Assembly (NCBI GenBank): GCA_017538685.1
Contig: JAFYIK010000266.1
Coordinates: forward strand, 1-8,704
Length of the DNA: 8,704 nucleotides
From: Bacteroidales bacterium
Lineage (GTDB): Bacteria > Bacteroidota > Bacteroidia > Bacteroidales > UBA932
Direction: 5' to 3'
Shown: one piece after another, positions 1-8,704 of the stretch
How the letters are laid out: each line of letters starts with the position of its first letter
Position numbering within the stretch: the first letter of the stretch is position 1
Position numbers and translations under genes: made by a program
The notes under the pieces: model-generated
What the model was told of the DNA's origin: nothing
Seen by the model: the letters and a program-made list of their open reading frames with translations, nothing else
Database searches by the model: none

Positions 1-35
1 GACAAAATGCCGGGAACAAGCAGGAAGGCAAATGA
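1..35 (+). CDS. 3' end of an unidentified upstream gene (partial)
   Basis: Read in the frame of positions 3-35, the window opens with an uninterrupted stretch ending QNAGNKQEGK and a TGA at 33-35. This TGA overlaps the ATG of the corA gene as ATGA, the same 4-nt overlap style seen at later junctions in this window. The visible tail is short, polar and lysine-rich, so no family can be named. Because only about 11 codons are visible, an open frame here could be chance. The overlap and the ribosome binding site inside it are the only support for a real gene that is co-transcribed with corA. Confidence 0.35.
   Translation, partial: QNAGNKQEGK
22..28 (+). promoter_or_regulatory. Ribosome binding site of corA
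   Basis: AGGAAGG lies just upstream of the ATG at 32 and contains an AGGA core about 6 nt from it. It supports this start over an in-frame start upstream of the window. Confidence 0.5.
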
Positions 36-979
36 TCAGAATTTTCTACAGACAAGGTAAGGAAATACTCCTTACGCAGTCCCAAACGGAGTTTGCGACT
101 ATCAGCAAAGAAAACGTCCTCTGGATAGATCTTCAAGACCCCAGCGGTGAAGAAAAAAGAGCGGCGGAAGATTTTCTTGGCACCAGGATTCAGAACCGCG
201 GCCAGGCGGAAGAGATCGAGACATCGTCCCGTTTTTACGAGACGGCGGGCTTCATCTTTGCCAACACCAACTTCCTCTCCCCTACCGGAGACGAAATGAG
301 TATGGATCCGGTGTCGTTCATTCTCACCAAACACACACTCACAACCCTTCGTGAGATTCCTATCCGCAGTTTCGACCTTCTGAGGAACAAGATCCAGGCT
401 CGCCCGGACCTTTTCCCCGACGGTTTCCATATTTTCGTCGAGATCATCGACAAGAGGGTCGACCTTGATGCCGACATAGTCGAGCTTGTCTCGCAGGACA
501 CCAGCCAGTTCAGCAAGCGCATCAACCAGCAGGAAGATATCAACGAAGAGTTCCTCCTCGACATCAACCAGCTGCAGGAAAACGCTATGCTCGTCCGCGA
601 GAACGTGGTGGACAAGCAGAGAATCCTGGGTAACGTTCTGAAGAGCGACCTTTTCCCGGATTCCCTGGACAAGAAGTTCAGCATCATCCTTCAGGATATC
701 GCTTCGCTAATCAACCACATCAACTTCTCCTTCGAGAGGCTGGAGTATCTGCAGGACACCGTGGTCGGTATGATCAACCTCGAGCAGAACCGCATTATGA
801 AGGTGTTCACGCTGATTTCCCTGCTGCTTATGCCGGCGACCCTCATCGCCAGCTTCTACGGAATGAACGTGAAACTGCCCTTCGACGGTTTCCGCTGGAT
901 GTGGCTCGTGATACTCGCGGCGATGGCCATTCTGGTCACCGCCCTGGTGTGGGTTTTCCGCAAGAAGAAATTTATGTAG
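32..979 (+). CDS. corA: CorA-family magnesium/divalent cation transporter
   Basis: This 315-residue protein is predicted to be an inner-membrane channel of the CorA family, a homopentamer that lets Mg2+ (and often Co2+ or Ni2+) into the cell. The N-terminal two thirds are soluble and charged. They end in a long helical stretch (about residues 150-250, rich in Q, E, N and L) matching the CorA stalk helix. Two membrane helices follow, near residues 255-275 and 290-310. Between them is the family's signature filter loop YGMN (GMN at 277-279), and the chain ends in a basic RKKK tail as in CorA. Length is normal for the family. The start at 32 is backed by a purine-rich ribosome binding site and by the ATGA overlap with a preceding frame. 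Its stop (977-979) directly abuts the stop of the convergent lipoprotein gene. Identification is firm; ion preference cannot be read from sequence alone. Confidence 0.93.
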   Translation: MIRIFYRQGKEILLTQSQTEFATISKENVLWIDLQDPSGEEKRAAEDFLGTRIQNRGQAEEIETSSRFYETAGFIFANTNFLSPTGDEMSMDPVSFILTKHTLTTLREIPIRSFDLLRNKIQARPDLFPDGFHIFVEIIDKRVDLDADIVELVSQDTSQFSKRINQQEDINEEFLLDINQLQENAMLVRENVVDKQRILGNVLKSDLFPDSLDKKFSIILQDIASLINHINFSFERLEYLQDTVVGMINLEQNRIMKVFTLISLLLMPATLIASFYGMNVKLPFDGFRWMWLVILAAMAILVTALVWVFRKKKFM

Positions 980-1994: not shown

Positions 1995-3083
1995 ATGCGC
2001 CGCAGCTTCGCTTTGCTTTTGATTCTTTTGGTGACCGCCTCCGTCTCCTGCACGGACAGGCGCTACTACCAGGTGAGCGGCTACGCTCAGGGCGGGACTT
2101 ATTCCGTCAAATACCGCGGCGCCTCCGTCCGGCCTGAAAAGGTCCGCGCCCTCACGGATTCGCTTCTGCGCGAGATTGATTTCACCCTCTCAGGGTACAA
2201 TAAGAATTCGCTTCTGAGCCGCTTGAACCGCGGCGACACCGTCGTCTTGAATCCTATGTTCGCCGAGATCTACCGCCTTTCGTACGAGATGTGGCAGCTC
2301 AGCGACGGCGCCTTCGACGCTGCCTGCGGTCCCCTCTTCGACATCTGGGGTTTCGGCTTCACCTCCGGCGAAATGCCCTCCGACGACCTGGTCGCCGCCA
2401 CCCTTTCCCGCTGCGGAATGTCCCGCCTGGTCGGGCCGGATGTCGTAGATTCCCTCGTCGCCGCCGCGCAGCCTGTGACTGGCTATGATCTGCGCGTCAT
2501 CCCCGACCATCCCGGCACTGTCATCCCCGACCTGATCGGGGATCTTCCCGTCCTGAACTTCAACGCCATCGCGCAGGGGTACAGCTGCGACCTGGTGTTC
2601 AATATGCTCCGCGGCCTGGGCGCGACGGACATTCTGGCGGACATAGGCGAAATCCGCTGCTGCGGCCGCAACCCTCTGGGCAAAGGCTGGAGCATCGGCA
2701 TCGACAATCCCGTGGACGGCAACGACCAACCAGGCGAAGACATACGCCAGGTCTGGGCCTCCGACGGCGGCGACTACGGGGTCGTCACCTCAGGCAACTA
2801 TCGCAAGTTCTACGTCCGCGACGGCCGCAAGTACTCCCACACCATCGACCCCCGCACCGGCCGCCCCGTGGAGCACGACCTCTTGAGCGCCACCGTCATA
2901 GTTCCCGGTGATTCCCCCGTTCTTTCACACTCCGGTCGCGCCTCCTTCGCGGCTGCCGAGGCCGACGCCCTCGCGACCATCTTTATGGTGACCGGCCTGG
3001 ACGCCTCCCGCGACTTCCTCGCCGCTCACCCCTCCCTCACCGCCTACCTCATCACCTCCGACACCCTCTGGAGCTCCAGATAA
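1995..3083 (+). CDS. apbE: FAD:protein FMN transferase ApbE, lipoprotein form
   Basis: ApbE transfers FMN from FAD onto a Thr or Ser of exported flavoproteins such as RnfG or NqrC subunits, on the periplasmic side. The protein is 362 residues from the ATG at 1995, which places a hydrophobic signal peptide ending SVSC (Cys19) at the N-terminus. Family motifs appear in order: SGYNKNSLLSRLN (from about residue 66), DGAFDAACGPLFDIWGFG (104 on), LNFNAIAQGYSCD (187-199), ADIGEI, TSGNYRKF (265-272), HTIDPRTGRPV (282-292), and the Mg2+-binding DALAT (324-328). Two stretches do not match the family pattern. Residues 168-184 are encoded by a REP-like palindrome, and about 305-322 form a Ser/Ala-rich insertion just before DALAT. 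Neither removes a catalytic motif, so the enzyme is probably active. The gene is transcribed alone: a divergent promoter precedes it and a strong hairpin follows at 3193-3226. Its stop codon lies inside a 32-bp tandem repeat. Confidence 0.92.
   Translation: MRRSFALLLILLVTASVSCTDRRYYQVSGYAQGGTYSVKYRGASVRPEKVRALTDSLLREIDFTLSGYNKNSLLSRLNRGDTVVLNPMFAEIYRLSYEMWQLSDGAFDAACGPLFDIWGFGFTSGEMPSDDLVAATLSRCGMSRLVGPDVVDSLVAAAQPVTGYDLRVIPDHPGTVIPDLIGDLPVLNFNAIAQGYSCDLVFNMLRGLGATDILADIGEIRCCGRNPLGKGWSIGIDNPVDGNDQPGEDIRQVWASDGGDYGVVTSGNYRKFYVRDGRKYSHTIDPRTGRPVEHDLLSATVIVPGDSPVLSHSGRASFAAAEADALATIFMVTGLDASRDFLAAHPSLTAYLITSDTLWSSR
2496..2546. repeat. REP-like palindromic element inserted in frame within apbE
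   Basis: GTCATCCCCGACC occurs at 2496-2508 and again at 2520-2532. The second copy continues into a hairpin with ATCCCCGA (2523-2530), a 5-nt loop and TCGGGGAT (2536-2543). This resembles the REP-type palindromes of general form GTCATCCC(G)GAC...GATC...GGGATC that are dispersed in many bacterial genomes. Here it is read as protein (V168 to L184, with VIPD twice), exactly between the conserved ApbE blocks ending GYD and starting LNFNAIAQGYSCD. It keeps the frame and has no stop codon. Confidence 0.7.
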
Positions 3084-3137
3084 CCATCCAGCGCGGGCGT
3101 TAAAGCTCCAGATAACCATCCAGCGCGGGCGTTAAAG
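3072..3137 (+). repeat. 32-bp tandem duplication spanning the apbE stop codon
   Basis: Two identical 32-nt units (3072-3103 and 3104-3135), followed by 2 further matching bases, begin AGCTCCAGATAACC and end GCGGGCGTTAA. The first unit contains the last codons and the TAA (3081-3083) of apbE; the second is downstream. The perfect identity points to a recent duplication, probably by replication slippage. Confidence 0.9.
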
Positions 3138-3284
3138 AACTATCCCTTCGTGCGGCGTGGGAGATAATCTCCTGAATATCAGCCAATTAAGCAAAAGAGG
3201 TCTCCCAAAAACGGGAGACCTCTTTTAATCAACTCTCTGACACACAGCAACTTAGCCCCCACACGGAACGATGAAGCGGGATAA
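3133..3284 (-). repeat. Dispersed repeat element, copy A
   Basis: The reverse complement of 3133-3248 aligns without gaps over 116 nt to 7634-7749, with about 98 identities by hand count. A looser match continues to 3284 against 7601-7633. The element is itself an imperfect palindrome: a 13-nt outer arm at 3155-3167 pairs imperfectly with 3252-3264, and the 14-bp hairpin at 3193-3226 has the same centre (about 3209.5). It carries no coding sequence. The matching copy lies on the other side of the five-gene operon in opposite orientation. Confidence 0.85.
3193..3226 (+). terminator. Strong hairpin terminator after apbE, probably bidirectional
   Basis: AAAAGAGGTCTCCC (3193-3206) pairs perfectly with GGGAGACCTCTTTT (3213-3226) around the 6-nt loop AAAAAC. 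The stem ends in T's on either strand, as expected for an intrinsic terminator. On the plus strand it would end apbE transcripts. It is the central part of repeat copy A. Confidence 0.8.
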
Positions 3285-3354
3285 CAAGCAGCGACTTAAC
3301 CCCCACGCGGAACGATGAAGCGGGATAACAAGCAGCAACTTAACCCCCACGCGG
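3245..3354 (+). repeat. 44-bp tandem repeat, about 2.5 copies
   Basis: Units start at 3245, 3289 and 3333 with a 44-nt period. The unit runs CAGCRACTTARCCCCCAC through GAAGCGGGATAACAAG. The third copy breaks off after 22 nt, at GCGG (3354). Units 1 and 2 differ at only a few positions. The first unit overlaps the edge of dispersed repeat copy A, and copy B at 7601-7633 contains one diverged unit, so the array looks like local amplification of one end of that element. The period is not a multiple of three, which argues against coding. Confidence 0.88.
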
Positions 3355-3406
3355 GCTTTAAAGCGCTAAACACGGGCGGGGCTGAGGGCGATCAAAGGAT
3401 TTTTAC

Positions 3407-3414
3407 TATATTTG
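3407..3414 (+). promoter_or_regulatory. Putative promoter of the SPFH-kinase-peptidase-PqqD-ABC operon
   Basis: TATATTTG is a perfect TAnnTTTG -7 box in an AT-rich patch. Its last G is 18 nt from the ATG at 3432, the same spacing as at apbE. No clear TTTG -33 element is present. It is the only good promoter seen between the upstream hairpin and the end of the ABC gene. Confidence 0.55.
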
Positions 3415-3431
3415 AAAAAATAATTATTGAT

Positions 3432-4274
3432 ATGGTTAGCAAAGCGACAAAATCTACATTTATCGCACTGGCCATCACGACTTTGACTATAGTCGTGCTG
3501 GCATCGTGCTGTACGACCATCGACTCTGCGTCGGTGGGTATACGCTTCAAGAAGTGGAGCTCGAACGAAAACCTGAAGGGCGGTGTGGAAGGAACGTGCC
3601 GAGGATGGGTGTGGTTCAACCCCATCACGGAGCGCATTTTCGAGTACCCGACCTACATCCAGCGTGTGACTTACGAGCCCTTCACGGTGAACCCGAAGGA
3701 TGCGGCTATTTTCTCGATGACCCCGACCCTGGCCTATCAGATCGACGAGGCGAAGGCGACCGACATCTTCATCAAGTACCGAAAACCCGTGCGGGAGCTG
3801 GAGATGGGATACATTAAGACGTGTATCTTCGAAGCTTACCGTACCTGCGCGAACAACTACACCTCGGACGAGCTGATGGCCAACCGCGCACGTTTCGAGA
3901 CTGAAGTGCGCGCCCGTCTGGACGAATCTATGAACCAGGAAGGCTTCATAGTCCGCGAGTTCACGACGAAGATCGACCCGCCGGCATCCCTGACCGCTGC
4001 TATCAACGCCAAGAACGAAGCCGTTCAGAATGCGCTCAAGGCTGAGAACAAGGTAAAGGAAGCCGAGGCCGAAGCGAAGATCGAAATCGCCAAGGCGGAA
4101 GGTGAGGCGAAAGCCCTCAAGATCAAGGGCAACGGCGAGGCCTACTACAACCGCGTTGTGTCCGCTTCTCTCAACAAACTGATAGTCGAGCAGTACGCCA
4201 TCGAGAAATGGGACGGCAAACTGCCCACCTACAATGGTGGCGGCTCCATTCCGTTCATCGACATCCAGAAGTGA
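3432..4274 (+). CDS. SPFH/prohibitin-family lipoprotein
   Basis: The protein is 280 residues. SPFH (stomatin/prohibitin/flotillin) proteins oligomerise on membranes and act as scaffolds or protease regulators. The ATG at 3432 is chosen because it follows a TATATTTG promoter box at the usual distance and starts a signal peptide; the frame also runs upstream to 3315 through repeat DNA, which is rejected. Residues 5-25 are hydrophobic and end in the lipobox LASC (Cys26), so the N-terminus is probably lipidated. Residues about 30-185 fit the band-7/SPFH domain. Residues 190-231 form an Ala/Glu/Lys-rich coiled coil (KVKEAEAEAKIEIAKAEGEA), and the tail KLPTYNGGGSIPFID resembles prohibitin-type C-termini. 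Its TGA overlaps the GTG of the kinase-like gene by 4 nt (GTGA), so it is translationally coupled to the peptide-system genes. The usual NfeD partner of bacterial SPFH genes is absent nearby. Confidence 0.85.
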   Translation: MVSKATKSTFIALAITTLTIVVLASCCTTIDSASVGIRFKKWSSNENLKGGVEGTCRGWVWFNPITERIFEYPTYIQRVTYEPFTVNPKDAAIFSMTPTLAYQIDEAKATDIFIKYRKPVRELEMGYIKTCIFEAYRTCANNYTSDELMANRARFETEVRARLDESMNQEGFIVREFTTKIDPPASLTAAINAKNEAVQNALKAENKVKEAEAEAKIEIAKAEGEAKALKIKGNGEAYYNRVVSASLNKLIVEQYAIEKWDGKLPTYNGGGSIPFIDIQK

Positions 4275-5164
4275 CGCACGATTTCCTGGTAGCGGAGCAC
4301 CTTTTCAGGGTGATTGTTCCCGACGGGCAACCGATCGGGATGGATAATTACGCGCCGTTCACGGCGACGGAAGGCGGGGAGCCGCTGTTCACGCTGGAGG
4401 TGGCCGCGGGGGAGGCGCCGGAGTTCGGGGAGCTCGAGCTGGTGATCGACCAGGGGGCGGAGCCGGGAGAGACGGTGCTTTCGCTATGGCGCCTGGAAGG
4501 CGGCCGCGGCTGGCTCGTGAAGATGGCGCCCAGCCCGGGCCGAAAGACTTCCGGCCTGCTGACGCTCGACCAGGATTTCAAACATTCGACGCTATACGTC
4601 CTAAGGCCGCAGGAGGCCGATTTCGCGCTGAACAACTCGCTGATGCTGCAATATGCCTTCGCGACCGCGACTCTCGGCACCCTCGAGATGCACGCCAGCA
4701 CCGTAGTCAACGGCGGCAGGGCGTACCTCTTCCTCGCGAAGAGCGGAACGGGCAAGAGCACTCACAGCCGGATGTGGCTGAAAGCTATCCCCGGCACGCA
4801 TCTGATGAACGACGACAACCCCGTCGTGCGGGTGTATCCGGGCGGCCGGGTGATGGCCTACGGCACGCCGTGGAGCGGAAAAACGCCGTGCTACCGCGCT
4901 GAAGCGTTCCCAGTCGGGGCGTTCGTGCGGATAGTCCGCGCGCCCGAAAACCGCCTCGAGCGGCTGTCCGTGGTGGAATCGTATGCGAGCGTCTATTCGT
5001 CCAGCTCTGGCTTCAAGGCCGACCGTGCAATGGGCGACGGGCTGCACTCCGCAATATCGGCCGCCGTTCAAGGCGCGCCCTCGTTTGCGATGCACTGCCT
5101 GCCGGACGAAGATGCCGCCCGCGTGTGCTTCGCAGGCATCGCCGGGGAGGGCGCGCACTCGTGA
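4271..5164 (+). CDS. HPr-kinase-like P-loop protein of a PqqD-linked cluster
   Basis: This 297-residue protein has the C-terminal core of HPr serine kinase-like proteins. It shows a hydrophobic strand and P-loop, FLAKSGTGKST, with AKSGTGKST at residues 156-164; an acidic pair NDDN (181-182) where HPr kinases have their DD motif; and GTPWSGKTP (200-204 region), typical of the relatives that accompany PqqD proteins. The N-terminal 130 residues are not recognisable. True HPr kinases phosphorylate the sugar-transport protein HPr. Relatives in lasso-peptide clusters phosphorylate the peptide, and others (HprK-related A and B groups) sit beside PqqD proteins with unknown substrates; this one fits the last type. 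The GTG at 4271 is chosen because it forms a GTGA overlap with the SPFH stop; the upstream ATG at 4208 would lie inside the SPFH gene. It in turn overlaps the peptidase gene by GTGA. The fold is well supported; the substrate is unknown. Confidence 0.78.
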   Translation: MTHDFLVAEHLFRVIVPDGQPIGMDNYAPFTATEGGEPLFTLEVAAGEAPEFGELELVIDQGAEPGETVLSLWRLEGGRGWLVKMAPSPGRKTSGLLTLDQDFKHSTLYVLRPQEADFALNNSLMLQYAFATATLGTLEMHASTVVNGGRAYLFLAKSGTGKSTHSRMWLKAIPGTHLMNDDNPVVRVYPGGRVMAYGTPWSGKTPCYRAEAFPVGAFVRIVRAPENRLERLSVVESYASVYSSSSGFKADRAMGDGLHSAISAAVQGAPSFAMHCLPDEDAARVCFAGIAGEGAHS

Positions 5165-5604
5165 ATATGACCTTTCCCAACGAAGTGCTGCTGCCGGAGG
5201 TGGCCGAACTGCTCGCGCGCGGTAGCGAGGTGGAAATCCGCACGAAAGGCTCGAGTATGCTGCCGTTCATCGTGGGCGACCGCGACAGCGTCCGCTTGCG
5301 CGCTATGCCGGCCTATGCCGAAGGCGACGCCGTCCTCGCCGAGATTGCAAAGGGCCGTTTTGTGCTGCACAGGATAGTGCGAATCGACGGAGAATGCGTA
5401 ACTTTGAAGGGCGACGGGAACCTCGTGGGCACGGAGAACTGCCGATTGGCGGATGTGAAGGGAAAGGCTATGGCGGTTGTGAAGCCAGGCGGCCATATCA
5501 GCGATTTCGCGGGTCCAAGGGCCCTGCGCCGCGCCCGCAGGTGGAACGCGCTACCATATTTTATCAGAAGATATTATCTGGCTATTCTTAGGAGATTGAT
5601 ATGA
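5161..5604 (+). CDS. S24/S26-family signal-peptidase-like protein (S26B, Ser-His-Asp type)
   Basis: The protein is 147 residues. The block TKGSSMLPFIVGD gives the nucleophile Ser32 in the G-S-S-M-x-P motif of S26 signal peptidases. The second block has VLHRIV (His70) and LKGDGN (Asp85). This matches the Ser-His-Asp set of SipW/ER-type (S26B) enzymes rather than the Ser-Lys pair of bacterial LepB. Unlike ordinary signal peptidases it lacks an evident membrane anchor; its C-terminus is basic and aromatic (FIRRYYLAILRRLI) and could be a short amphipathic helix. Small proteins of this type commonly accompany PqqD and ABC exporter genes in Bacteroidota, suggesting leader removal from a peptide, though that is inference. 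The GTG at 5161 overlaps the kinase stop as GTGA, with GGGGAGG 10 nt upstream; an ATG at 5167 is the alternative. The stop overlaps the next start as ATGA. Confidence 0.8.
   Translation: MNMTFPNEVLLPEVAELLARGSEVEIRTKGSSMLPFIVGDRDSVRLRAMPAYAEGDAVLAEIAKGRFVLHRIVRIDGECVTLKGDGNLVGTENCRLADVKGKAMAVVKPGGHISDFAGPRALRRARRWNALPYFIRRYYLAILRRLI
5590..5594 (+). promoter_or_regulatory. Ribosome binding site of the PqqD-family gene
   Basis: AGGAG lies 6 nt before the ATG at 5601, within the last codons of the peptidase gene. It is the clearest Shine-Dalgarno sequence in the operon and may give the small recognition protein its own efficient initiation. Confidence 0.6.
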
Positions 5605-5870
5605 AAACAGTAGAAGGATTCAGGCTGAGAGAGATTTGCGGCGAGTTCATAATCGTGCCGGAGAGCACGAAACTCGTGAATTTCAACAAGATGATTCATC
5701 TCAACGCGACCGCCGCTTATCTTTGGGAGGAGGTCAACGGTCTTGAGGAGTTCACAGTCGAGGGGCTCGCCAAATTGCTGACGGACAAGTACGACGTGTC
5801 CGACGAAGTCGCCCTGAAAGACGCAGAGGCCATCGCTGAAAAGTGGAAAGAAATAGGAATCGCAGCCTAG
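5601..5870 (+). CDS. PqqD-family RiPP recognition element protein
   Basis: The protein is 89 residues, the normal size for a stand-alone PqqD-like protein. These small winged-helix proteins bind the leader of a ribosomally made peptide and present it to tailoring enzymes. Visible hallmarks are GFRLREICGEFIIVPE (beta strands, residues 6-21), FNKMIHLNATAAYLWEEVNG (31-50) with the LNxTAxxLWE motif, and the helical tail EFTVEGLAKLLTDKYDVS followed by ADAEAIAEKWKEIG-like spacing typical of the family. It overlaps the peptidase gene by ATGA and ends 1 nt before the ABC gene. The enzymes often served by PqqD proteins (radical SAM, lasso cyclase, YcaO) are absent here, so the linked kinase-like protein is the best candidate partner. 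Assignment to the family is firm; involvement in pyrroloquinoline quinone synthesis is not supported, since no other pqq gene is present. Confidence 0.88.
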   Translation: MKTVEGFRLREICGEFIIVPESTKLVNFNKMIHLNATAAYLWEEVNGLEEFTVEGLAKLLTDKYDVSDEVALKDAEAIAEKWKEIGIAA

Positions 5871-5871
5871 G

Positions 5872-7581
5872 ATGAAAGATTTCGGACCGTGCTTGAAAGG
5901 GGTTTGGAGACTGCTCCGGACCGTCAGGTGGAAGGTGCTGTTCAGCGCTTTCCTGCAGACGGTCGCTGCCGCCGCTTCGCTCGCTTTCGTATGGTTCAGC
6001 AAGAGGGTGGTGGACATAGCCACGGGGCATCTGGACGCTCCGCTCGGCGCCGGCATAGGCGTGCTGATAGGCATTATGGCCCTGCAGGTCCTCACCCGCG
6101 TTTTCGTCAAATACTACGAAGGCCGCATAACGATTCAGGCCAAAAACCGCATACGCTCGGAGGTGTTCGACAAGGCCCTCCGCAGCACCTGGACGGGTAA
6201 GGACAAGTTCCACAGCGCCGATATGGCGAACCGTATGGAAGAGGATATTCGGGTGGTGACGGATTTCATCTGCTGCGACATTCCGGAGGCGTTTGTCACT
6301 GTGATTCAGCTGATTGCGGCGGTGATAATGCTGTTCGTATTCTCCTCGTCGCTGGCTTGGATCCTGATTTGGATTATGCCGGTGGCCGTCGTGGGCGCCC
6401 GTCTCTATTTCCGCCGTATGCGCGCGCTGACCACCGAAATCCGCACCATCGACGGTCACATCAACGGCCACCTCCAGGAGACCCTACAGCACCGGGTGCT
6501 CGTGAAGACGCTCGGCAGCGTGGGCGCTTCGCAGGAAGAGTTGGAGGCGCTGCAGGAGCAGGAGATGGACCGCACGGTGACGCGCCTTGGGTATTCGGCT
6601 CTTTCGCGCGGTTTTATGTCAGTCGGCTTCTCGGCGGGTTATCTGACTGCCTTCATCTGGGGAGTCCTGGGTCTTAAAGACGGCTCGGTGACGTATGGCT
6701 TGATGGTCGCATTCCTGCAGATGGTCGGCCAGGTGCAAAGGCCCGTCGCTAATCTGGCGCTGTACATCCCGGCGTTTATCAAATCGCTTTCTTCCGAGGA
6801 GCGTTTGCTGGAGATAGGAGAACTGCCGCAGGAAGGCGAGTACGAAGATGTCCTTCTCGATGGCGCTCCGGGAATACGCATTTCGGACCTTTCATTCACC
6901 TACGAAGACCGCGGCTCGAAGGTCCTTTCCGATTTCTCCTTCGATTTCAAGCCCGGCCGTATGACCGTCATCACCGGTCCCACCGGCGAGGGCAAGAGCA
7001 CGCTCGCGCAGCTGATGCTGGCTTTATTGAAGCCAGATTCCGGGACTATTGAACTGTATTCCGACCCCAAGACCCCCGCTCTTCTCATCAGCCCGGCGAC
7101 GAGGTGCAACTTTATGTACGTGCCTCAGGGGAATTCTCTGCTGAGCGGCTCGGTGCGGGCTAACCTGCTGATGGCCAAGCCTTCAGCCACGGACGAAGAG
7201 CTTCGCGAGGCCCTCCACCTCGCCGCGGCCGATTTCGTCCTCGACCTGCCCGACGGACTGGACACCTCCTGCGCCGAAATCGGCCGCGGCCTCTCCGAGG
7301 GCCAGGCCCAGCGCATCGCCATCGCCCGCGCCCTCCTGCGCTCCGGCGGCATCCTCATTCTGGACGAAGCCACCTCCGCACTCGACCCCGCGACCGAGCA
7401 GCTCGTCCTCGGCCGTATCCGTGAACGCTTTACCGTCTCCCCCGGCCACGACCTCGTTTCCGATTCTACTGGCGACGTTTCTGGTTTCCCGCCCTCGTGT
7501 CCCGCTCTGTCAAAGACGATCATCTGCATCACCCACCGCCCCGCCGCCGCTGCCCTCGCCGACGCGCACCTCGCGCTTTAA
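5872..7581 (+). CDS. ABC exporter, fused membrane and ATPase domains
   Basis: The protein is 569 residues and acts in the inner membrane, probably as a homodimeric exporter. Residues about 20-305 contain hydrophobic helices near 22-42, 58-75, 140-160, 161-178, 250-268 and 275-300, an ABC type-1 membrane domain without a C39 peptidase domain. The ATPase domain has Walker A GPTGEGKST (369-377), Q-loop YVPQG (Gln419), signature LSEGQ (474-478, E for the usual second G), Walker B ILILDE (494-499) with D-loop SALD, and switch His555 in ITHRP. Two oddities stand out. About 26 Ser/Pro/Gly-rich residues (522-547) are inserted between the helix after Walker B and the strand before His555. The protein ends only 14 residues after His555, shorter than most ABC exporters. 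It starts 1 nt after the PqqD gene, so it is the likely exporter of that system's product. The inverted repeat copy B begins just after its stop. Confidence 0.87.
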   Translation: MKDFGPCLKGVWRLLRTVRWKVLFSAFLQTVAAAASLAFVWFSKRVVDIATGHLDAPLGAGIGVLIGIMALQVLTRVFVKYYEGRITIQAKNRIRSEVFDKALRSTWTGKDKFHSADMANRMEEDIRVVTDFICCDIPEAFVTVIQLIAAVIMLFVFSSSLAWILIWIMPVAVVGARLYFRRMRALTTEIRTIDGHINGHLQETLQHRVLVKTLGSVGASQEELEALQEQEMDRTVTRLGYSALSRGFMSVGFSAGYLTAFIWGVLGLKDGSVTYGLMVAFLQMVGQVQRPVANLALYIPAFIKSLSSEERLLEIGELPQEGEYEDVLLDGAPGIRISDLSFTYEDRGSKVLSDFSFDFKPGRMTVITGPTGEGKSTLAQLMLALLKPDSGTIELYSDPKTPALLISPATRCNFMYVPQGNSLLSGSVRANLLMAKPSATDEELREALHLAAADFVLDLPDGLDTSCAEIGRGLSEGQAQRIAIARALLRSGGILILDEATSALDPATEQLVLGRIRERFTVSPGHDLVSDSTGDVSGFPPSCPALSKTIICITHRPAAAALADAHLAL

Positions 7582-7600
7582 CGCTTTTCGTTGTTTTTCA

Positions 7601-7749
7601 TCCCGCTTCAAATTTCCGCGTGGGGGATAAGTCGCTGTATGTCAGAGAGTTGATTAAAAGAGGTCTCCCAAAAACGAGAGACCTCTTTTGCTTAATTGGC
7701 TCATATTCAACTTGTTATCCCCCACGCCGGGCGAAGGGAGAGTTCTTTA
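7601..7749 (+). repeat. Dispersed repeat element, copy B
   Basis: Positions 7634-7749 align without gaps to the reverse complement of 3133-3248, and 7601-7633 matches one diverged 44-bp unit of the upstream array (TCCCGCTTCA, then CCGCGTGGGGG). Copy B is a cleaner palindrome than copy A: GCGTGGGGGATAA (7618-7630) is the exact reverse complement of 7715-7727, and these arms share their centre (about 7672.5) with the inner hairpin. It fills most of the gap between the convergent ABC exporter and galM genes and contains no gene. Confidence 0.85.
7656..7689. terminator. Bidirectional hairpin terminator between the ABC exporter and galM genes
   Basis: AAAAGAGGTCTCCC (7656-7669) pairs with GAGAGACCTCTTTT (7676-7689) around the loop AAAAAC, with one mismatch in 14 bp. 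The A's and T's at the ends let it act in both directions, as fits its place between convergent genes. It is the same hairpin as at 3193-3226, with the loop in the same orientation although the surrounding element is inverted. Confidence 0.8.
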
Positions 7750-7780: not shown

Positions 7781-8704
7781 TTATTCGCGACTAGTGCCGA
7801 AGCGGTAGATGCAAGCGTGCGTGTAGGCCTCTCCGGGGCGGAGGATTATCGGGCCGAAATCCGGGTGGTTCACGGCGTCGGGATAGCGCTGGGTCTCGAG
7901 GGCGAGGGAGCTGCGGAAGCCAAGGATATGGCCGTTCGCTCCGCACTCCTTTCCGTCGAAGAAGTTCCCGCTGTAGAACTGTAGCCCAGGCTGGTCGGAA
8001 AGCACTTCCACCCATCGACCGCTGACCGGGTCCTCAACGCGGCAGACCAGTTCCACGCCGTCGGTCTGCTTGTCGATGCACCAATTGTGGTCATAGCCGC
8101 GGGCGTTGCGAAGTTGCGCGTCATCCTCTGAAATGCGCTGTCCTATGGCGTGCGGGGTACGGAAATCGAAGGGTGTACTCCGCACAGGGGCAATTTCGCC
8201 GGTAGGAATGGACAACGGGTCGATAGGGAGATAATGGGAAGCATTGATCCACATCAGGTACTCCTCCACGCTGCCGTTTCCTTCCCCGCGAAGGCAGAAG
8301 AATGGATGATGGGTGAAGTTCACCGGAGTGGCTTTGTCGGTGGTGGCATAGTACTTCACGGAAAACTCTCCCTGGGGGCCGAGCGAATCAGACATAGTCA
8401 TATCCAGGTTCCCGGGGTATCCTTCCAGGCCGTCGGGATGCAGGAGATGGAGGACTATGGAAGTGTCCGTGGAGCCAACCACGTCCCAGACCATATTGTC
8501 TACTCCCTTGAAACCGCCGTGAAGGGTATTCTTTCCGTTGTCGTTGACAGGCGTATTGCAGACTTCCCCGTCGACTGTGAAGGAAGCGTTACCTATTCGG
8601 TTTGCCACCGGCCCCACGCACGCGCCGAGAAAGCGCTCCCCCGGAGGCGTGAGATAATCCTTCAGGTTATCGTGTCCCACCACTATGCTTGTGTATTTCC
8701 CGTC
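7781..8704 (-). CDS. galM: Aldose 1-epimerase (mutarotase), N-terminus cut by window edge
   Basis: GalM interconverts the alpha and beta anomers of galactose, glucose and related sugars. The reading frame is open from the window edge: the first visible codons give DGKYTSIVVGHDNLKDYL, which matches the family block that follows the first strands, so roughly 40-60 residues plus the start lie beyond 8704. An internal GTG at 8683 is not a plausible start. Family motifs seen in order are GPVANRIGNASF, NTLHGGFKGVDNMVWD (the first active-site His), VNFTHHPFFCL (the catalytic acid His), YDHNWCID, and LALETQRYPDAVNHPDF, whose Glu is the expected catalytic base. All key residues are present, so the enzyme should be functional. 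It converges on the ABC exporter gene with 199 nt between stops. Whether it is cytoplasmic or secreted cannot be judged without the N-terminus. Confidence 0.92.
   Translation of the reverse strand, partial: DGKYTSIVVGHDNLKDYLTPPGERFLGACVGPVANRIGNASFTVDGEVCNTPVNDNGKNTLHGGFKGVDNMVWDVVGSTDTSIVLHLLHPDGLEGYPGNLDMTMSDSLGPQGEFSVKYYATTDKATPVNFTHHPFFCLRGEGNGSVEEYLMWINASHYLPIDPLSIPTGEIAPVRSTPFDFRTPHAIGQRISEDDAQLRNARGYDHNWCIDKQTDGVELVCRVEDPVSGRWVEVLSDQPGLQFYSGNFFDGKECGANGHILGFRSSLALETQRYPDAVNHPDFGPIILRPGEAYTHACIYRFGTSRE

Follow-up and report, generated by a model that had tools for sequence, protein, structure and literature searches.

What is the function of five closely packed genes that encode an SPFH-domain lipoprotein, an HPr-kinase-like protein, a peptidase, a PqqD-like protein and an ABC exporter on one strand of a Bacteroidales contig? 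The open reading frames (ORFs) span positions 3432–7581 on the forward strand of an 8,704 nt stretch of DNA (contig JAFYIK010000266.1), which was analysed at its full length and is referred to as the window. A preliminary description had read them as a system for phosphorylation, cleavage and export of a peptide, with the SPFH protein as a scaffold and without radical S-adenosylmethionine (SAM), YcaO or lasso cyclase genes. Its account of the gene run, with three overlaps of 4 nt and one gap of 1 nt, is exact in coordinates and spacing. We scanned the nine proteins of the window against Pfam and NCBIfam and found none with a domain of the radical SAM, YcaO or lasso cyclase type. The functional proposal agrees with the core set of a published pathway, with the structure model of the PqqD-like protein and with the co-occurrence of the kinase and a family of YxxP peptides, but its SPFH part did not hold. 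We consider it likely that the other four genes constitute a Bacteroidales system for maturation and export of a ribosomally synthesized and post-translationally modified peptide (RiPP), which resembles the Linear Polyphosphorylated Peptide (LPP) pathway and acts in trans on precursors from dispersed peptide–lipoprotein operons.

The kinase–peptidase–PqqD–ABC group is a conserved Bacteroidales cassette. A scan of contigs with the window kinase gave at least 592 confirmed relatives; the best 80 of the 592 were taken as loci in which the window proteins were located by tblastn (counts of 81 include the window). The closest relatives among the matches listed are three loci (L001–L003) of uncultured Bacteroidales from ruminant samples, with kinases that are 79–84% identical to that of the window. 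The kinase gene is accompanied by the peptidase gene in 79 of the 80 loci, by the PqqD gene in 72 and by the ABC exporter gene in 68 (80, 73 and 69 of 81 with the window). Spacing was evaluated with the window included and with gene starts picked by script. The kinase and peptidase genes overlap in 66 of 80 cases and the peptidase and PqqD genes in 50 of 71, while the PqqD and ABC genes overlap or are at most 30 nt apart in 59 of 64. The chromosomal setting of the cassette varies. In one group of loci its neighbours are DUF4290, FtsK and LolA (named by eye), and it is found in other places elsewhere.

In two loci (L045, L046) the cassette is split, the kinase and peptidase genes being on one strand and the PqqD and ABC genes on the opposite strand several kb away. 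A cluster of FISUMP lipoproteins recurs near the cassette in 14 of the 81 sequences, often beside ApbE (among others in L002, L004, L005, L007–L011, L013, L018, L027 and L029). A small Lys/Ala-rich ORF (MSxEPKKKAMDLxGDGKVT...), together with its antisense, was seen near three cassettes (L024:7945–8229, L048:14533–14796 and L052:12188–12490).

The PqqD-like protein matches PF05402 (E 1.4e-14), and residues N35, A38, L41 and W42 are invariant in 73 PqqD proteins. Its predicted structure (predicted local distance difference test, pLDDT, 88.5) keeps the winged helix, in line with the peptide-binding fold that had been claimed, and is closest to complexes of B1 proteins with leaders. The six best matches in the PDB are TbiB1 and TfuB1 (E 3e-4 to 1e-3; template modelling (TM) score 0.71–0.72), which are lasso B1 proteins with structures determined in complex with leader peptides; the next match, PqqD of M. 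extorquens, has an E-value of 0.02. TfuB1 was also the sole match at E 0.1 when the sequence profile was compared with the PDB.

For the kinase, family matches were obtained only below the curated cut-offs (PEPCK_ATP, E 0.0085; HprK_rel_A, E 7e-4), and no meaningful solved relative was found by sequence (best E 0.017). Its motifs are H141, a Walker A motif around residues 156–163, the pair D181 D182, and PWSGKTPCY at 200–208. Invariant in 81 kinases are H141, G159, G161, K162, S163, D181, D182 and the whole PWSGKTPCY motif. The best matches of the structure model (pLDDT 91.2) are PEPCK structures (E 4.5e-8; TM, relative to query length, 0.52); HprK/P structures match at about 1e-4 with TM 0.2–0.3. 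The claimed family is supported by these model matches together with the motifs. The HPr-rel-A system, in which an HprK-related kinase is presumably likewise grouped with a PqqD-type protein, differs in that the window kinase reaches 18.7 bits against TIGR04352 vs a cut-off of 200.

The peptidase had been assigned to the S26 type. Its matches to Peptidase_S24 (E 0.0039) and LexA (E 7e-4) lie below the curated cut-offs, and S32 is kept in 100% and H70 in 99% of the 80 rows compared, which is consistent with the assignment; no transmembrane helix was seen by eye. The families named for the SPFH protein (Band_7), the PqqD-like protein and the exporter were all recovered by the domain scans. The exporter contains ABC_membrane (E 5e-27) and ABC_tran (E 1e-24) domains. 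Its best NCBIfam match is TIGR02203 (MsbA) with E 5e-62 and 210 bits vs a cut-off of 602, and CydD follows with E 8e-62, also below its cut-off. A C39 peptidase domain is not among the 14 Pfam families listed for the window proteins. Judged by these residues the enzymes look intact, the catalytic residues of the kinase being invariant.

The neighbourhood scan contradicts the claim that the SPFH gene is part of the system. The gene, whose product carries a lipoprotein signal (read by eye), adjoins the kinase gene in only 3 of the 80 loci (L001–L003; 4 of 81 with the window), where it lies directly upstream. At least 1 kb of DNA is available upstream of the kinase gene in 75 of the 80 loci (less than 1 kb in five), so that missing DNA does not explain the absence of the gene, though some contigs are short. 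In the three loci the SPFH protein is 95–98% identical to that of the window vs 78–91% for the cassette proteins. Among 24 whole genomes, the SPFH gene adjoins the kinase gene in G001–G003; a homologue of 53–62% identity is located on another contig in seven, a weak partial match was obtained in one, and no SPFH match in 13. The seven separate homologues have, by eye, no neighbours in common. A single system of all five genes, with the SPFH lipoprotein as a membrane scaffold for the kinase or the peptidase, would be consistent with the GTGA overlap in the window and with the same gene order in the three loci. In view of its absence from beside the kinase in the other 77 loci, and of homologues that occur apart from the kinase among unrelated genes, we regard this as most improbable, and the SPFH protein was rejected as an integral part. 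The gene looks like a local, later addition in one small clade.

Candidate substrates were obtained from the small ORFs near the cassettes, which were clustered over the 80 loci and viewed for the top 25 clusters. Two of these clusters (present in four and three loci) consist of short ORFs with Y-x-x-P near the N terminus. A profile made from them converged on nine ORFs in nine loci, and a later profile gave the same nine. None of the first nine peptides received a family name above cut-off in NCBIfam or Pfam; the L072 peptide matched NF033524 (paeninodin lasso) with E 0.069, and the other hits were chance-like. Profile matches were found in 32 of 33 cassette genomes at E 0.1, a threshold that admits chance matches in a set of which nine genomes had supplied model rows; G001, G002 and G003 hold two, six and two of them (E ≤ 0.1). 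From 5.8 billion proteins, 46 relatives were retrieved, of which five bear a name, always ‘hypothetical protein’.

The consensus of the wider family is YxAPxxEVxExxxEGxICxS, followed by a variable acidic tail rich in Asp, Gly and Glu. A Ser residue stands 19 positions after the Tyr in 59 of 77 peptides; at each of the other positions printed, Ser reaches 19% or less. Since the peptides were chosen by profile, the conservation seen within the motif is in part circular. The 77 peptides are those left of 97 after removal of one without YxxP and of 19 that were too alike (70% cut). Near-identical leaders are joined to different tails: among 17 of the 46 proteins that were inspected, there are five MKKKL[MF]YE and two MKTKTVLHEGYEAPQ peptides of this kind, and a further MKTKTVLHEGYEAPQ peptide is present among the peptide–lipoprotein regions described below.

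The peptides co-occur with the kinase. In the family to which G001 belongs (149 genomes; kinase at E 1e-20, peptide at E 0.01), the kinase was detected in 71 genomes and a peptide in 48. Peptides are present in 46 of the 71 genomes with the kinase and in 2 of the 78 without it (Fisher 1e-17, a statistic that ignores shared ancestry and uses peptide models built from cassette genomes). After removal of the four genomes which supplied rows of the peptide model, the counts are 42/67 vs 2/78. A genome holds up to 19 peptide matches, and these are scattered over many contigs throughout the family; the first pass of the genome search may miss short peptides. Where the kinase match is at E 1e-80 or better, a limit picked after the table was seen, 35 of 38 genomes contain peptides and account for 228 of the 252 matches, vs 11 of 33 genomes with a weaker kinase match. 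At order level (247 genomes), the kinase occurs in 18 genomes and a peptide (E 1e-3) in five, all of which possess the kinase (hypergeometric 1e-6; 2e-5 without G001). At class level, 6 of 247 genomes contain the kinase.

Several observations weigh against the proposed pathway. The peptide profiles detect no candidate precursor in the window, and only 9 of the 80 cassette loci hold a YxxP peptide. At the thresholds used, no peptide was found in 25 of the 71 kinase-positive genomes of the family and in 13 of the 18 of the order; in one order-level genome, G487, the sole match lies in an open frame of 370 residues and may not be a small peptide. Two genomes, G546 and G563, have YxxP peptides (L149:4199–4399 and L150:3829–3954, the former preceding a lipoprotein gene) and no detected kinase; no PqqD match was obtained in them either, in a search run without a positive control. 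Loss or incomplete assembly may account for these two cases. As to the enzymes, the first Gly of the Walker A motif is Ala156 in the window kinase (Gly in most relatives), and in the peptidase the Asp expected as third catalytic residue is not clearly conserved. The cassette might modify a different substrate, either a protein or a peptide of unrelated type, and the YxxP peptides might merely be co-inherited in the same clades, as the kinase-positive genomes and cassette loci devoid of peptides would allow and as the neglect of phylogeny and the origin of the peptide models would permit. We consider this unlikely, because just two of the 78 genomes of the same family without the kinase contain peptides, because these were first detected in the vicinity of cassettes, and because they bear the motif which is bound by the class of proteins that the PqqD-like protein resembles.

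The peptide genes are paired with genes for lipoproteins. The analysis covered 20 regions from 13 genomes, hand-picked for strong peptide hits and not random, with 30 peptide ORFs, of which 28 have a downstream ORF and two have none in the available DNA. In 27 of the 28 cases (exception, L124) the peptide ORF precedes a gene with a lipoprotein signal by 6–21 nt, the signal being recognized by a simple, home-made lipobox pattern and the gap being counted to the Met chosen by the pattern. As a background, the lipobox pattern is present in 132 of 652 long ORFs (20%) of 81 sequences. Tandem arrangements of pairs were seen in L131, L132, L136 and L140 and a cluster of pairs in L133; the kinase gene of L140 is directly preceded by two peptide–lipoprotein pairs. 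The paired lipoprotein ORFs are 286–1237 residues long as called. When eight of them were compared with Pfam, two matched Flg_new_2 (InlB B-repeat-like) above cut-off, two had weaker hits only (BT_3987-like, Reelin, BACON), and four had no match. In NCBIfam, three of the eight match FISUMP below cut-off, which is the domain of the lipoprotein encoded at 980–1927 in the window.

The constant spacing of 6–21 nt would also be expected if the YxxP peptides were products of upstream leader ORFs with a role in translational control of the lipoprotein genes, and were not exported at all. This is very improbable in our view, as YxxP and one Ser are conserved at the amino acid level, conserved leaders are joined to different tails, and the peptides co-occur with the kinase of a cassette that also encodes a predicted recognition element, a peptidase and an exporter. 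For a maturation and export pathway, the location of precursor genes a few nucleotides before genes for surface lipoproteins implies that the phosphopeptide would probably partner that lipoprotein.

Gene clusters for LPP RiPPs (LppA/K/B/S/D/N) have been described in Bacillota (Popov et al., 2026; PMC13381572; all statements on LPP refer to the accessible part of this text). YxxP is needed for binding by LppB, and LppK phosphorylates Ser3 of the core. LppS (S29, H68, D93) cuts off the leader with the help of LppB, and the exporter belongs to the core set. Deletion of lppN caused no detectable change of the product, and the biological role of LPP is stated as unknown (PMC13381572). The cassette shares with LPP an HprK-like kinase, a discrete PqqD-type RiPP recognition element (RRE), a SipW-type Ser–His peptidase, an MsbA-like exporter and the lack of a cyclase, and the precursors share a YxxP leader and a variable C terminus. 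The conserved Ser is at Tyr+19 here vs Tyr+18 in LPP, where the position of Ser3 was counted from the printed motif YxxPxVLxHQxIxFETxxS (PMC13381572); beyond YxxP, this motif differs from the leader consensus of our family. LPP precursors are encoded in cis, one to three per cluster and often in capsule loci, whereas the precursors described here are dispersed in trans before lipoprotein genes.

No nucleoside triphosphate (NTP) transferase corresponding to LppN was found among the window proteins, which speaks against a full match, and a YxxP precursor within the cluster, which is an LPP feature, is likewise missing (0 in the window). We therefore file the system outside strict LPP. In 10 of the 81 sequences (L024, L040, L045, L056, L068, L069, L072, L076, L077 and L079), a gene for a protein of about 380 residues lies within the cassette or close to it. 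The two members of this cluster that were tested match NTP_transf_5 (PF14907), which strengthens the parallel with LPP. On the best reading, the pathway would work like that of LPP. The discussion of the LPP paper, as far as accessible, regards LPP as restricted to Bacillota; the peptidase network of the paper is ‘predominantly’ Bacillota, and the word stem Bacteroid is absent from the accessible text (PMC13381572). The words S24 and S26 do not occur in the accessible text of a survey of Bacteroidales RiPPs (PMC10352776), and no description of a Bacteroidota version of an LPP-like pathway was found in the accessible parts of the open-access literature searched.

Phosphorylated lasso peptides (the paeninodin group and Bsf) offer a second comparison. 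Their clusters, according to the accessible texts, have an HprK-like kinase with the same order of His, P-loop and Asp pair, an ABC exporter and an optional nucleotidyltransferase, as seen near some of the cassettes. In the Bsf system of Bradymonas, a PqqD-type B1 protein binds the YxxP leader and BsfK is the kinase; BsfK and the window kinase have the same His–Lys distance, with a difference of two in the spacing to the Asp pair (PMC10368454, accessible part). For rumen bacteria, chiefly Firmicutes, genes for HPr kinase, PqqD and nucleotidyltransferase were reported with lasso clusters (PMC7533575, accessible part). The cassette differs in that a SipW-type peptidase takes the place of the B2 protease. 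Neither an asparagine-synthetase-like macrolactam cyclase nor a B2 protease is among the nine window proteins, the cyclase not having been searched genome-wide. PF13471, which we take to be the lasso B2 domain, matched in none of nine related genomes; matches were obtained in 2 of 14 control genomes, one of them above cut-off.

From these comparisons we infer the following course. The PqqD-like RRE would bind YxxP in the leader of precursors encoded elsewhere in the genome, and the HprK-like kinase would phosphorylate the Ser at Tyr+19. Removal of the leader next to that Ser would fall to the SipW-type Ser/His peptidase, and the MsbA-like ABC protein would export the acidic core to the periplasm. 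There the phosphopeptide would probably act with, or on, the lipoprotein encoded downstream. The proposed steps of binding, phosphorylation and leader cleavage have demonstrated counterparts in LPP (PMC13381572, accessible part). A cut after [CA]-x-S would follow the –3/–1 rule of signal peptidases; as the Ser is at position 3 of the core in LPP, a cut just before the Ser motif is at least as likely. We tentatively suggest, as a possibility with less in its favour, that one cassette serves up to about 19 peptide–lipoprotein pairs per genome and that each exported phosphopeptide is either joined to its cognate lipoprotein or incorporated into the fold of that lipoprotein.

The other features of the window are compiled in Table 1. 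The five genes had been placed behind a single promoter box. This is borne out insofar as the box before the SPFH gene conforms to TAnnTTTG, which we take to be the –7 consensus of Bacteroidales promoters, and as the SPFH gene in L001 is preceded by the same TATATTTG; the number of such boxes in the window, four vs 1.8 expected, is not significant, as at least four were obtained in 26 of 200 shuffles. RNA families and tRNAs were not found in the window.

Two imperfect inverted repeats of 162 nt flank the operon, each arm being itself a long palindrome. Inverted repeats peculiar to the operon, or an element capable of inversion, were considered and rejected. No match to the arms was found in the 80 loci, but the left arm matches six places in G001, three in G002 and none in eight other genomes, so that the repeats are probably not peculiar to the operon. 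The orientation of the operon relative to ApbE is opposite in L002 (window 1995–7581 vs L002:7155–14502), which indicates a rearrangement in one lineage. The orientation of CorA relative to FISUMP also differs between the window and L002, which points to local inversions. A perfect tandem duplication of 32 nt extends over the end of ApbE (within 3072–3135), and a repeat with a period of 44 nt and the sequence CCCCCACGCGG is present at 3240–3354.

Table 1. Features of the window with their positions (nt).
Feature	Position	Strand	Remarks
CorA	32–979	+	flanking gene
FISUMP lipoprotein	980–1927	–	flanking gene
ApbE	1995–3083	+	flanking gene
Dispersed palindromic intergenic repeat, left copy	3133–3294		162 nt, 83% complementary to 7588–7749
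Putative Bacteroidales-type –7 promoter box TATATTTG	3407–3414	+	TAnnTTTG, 17 nt before SPFH start
SPFH/Band_7 lipoprotein gene	3432–4274	+	Band_7 E 4e-20; 4 nt overlap GTGA with kinase gene
Putative HprK/PEPCK-like peptide kinase (LppK/BsfK-like), GTG start	4271–5164	+	motifs, model matches
Putative SipW/archaeal-type signal-peptidase-like leader peptidase, GTG start	5161–5604	+	4 nt overlap GTGA with kinase gene; S32, H70
Predicted discrete PqqD-like RRE, winged helix	5601–5870	+	4 nt overlap ATGA with peptidase gene
MsbA-type ABC exporter, transmembrane and ATPase	5872–7581	+	1 nt gap after PqqD gene
Same intergenic repeat, right inverted copy	7588–7749		flanks operon
Aldose epimerase	7781–8704	–	flanking gene

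What is new in this system is its phylum, its organization in trans and the way in which peptide genes are paired with genes for surface lipoproteins. The core machinery of LPP now has a likely counterpart in Bacteroidales, with the kinase in 71 of the 149 genomes of one family, and the pathway would explain a family of short peptides that have been named, if at all, ‘hypothetical protein’. The pairing of peptide and lipoprotein genes is a strong hint to function which is directly testable. If the phosphopeptides are indeed joined to their lipoproteins, the cassette would represent, in gut Bacteroidales, a system for surface display or recognition, and it would suggest a biological role for LPP-type peptides.

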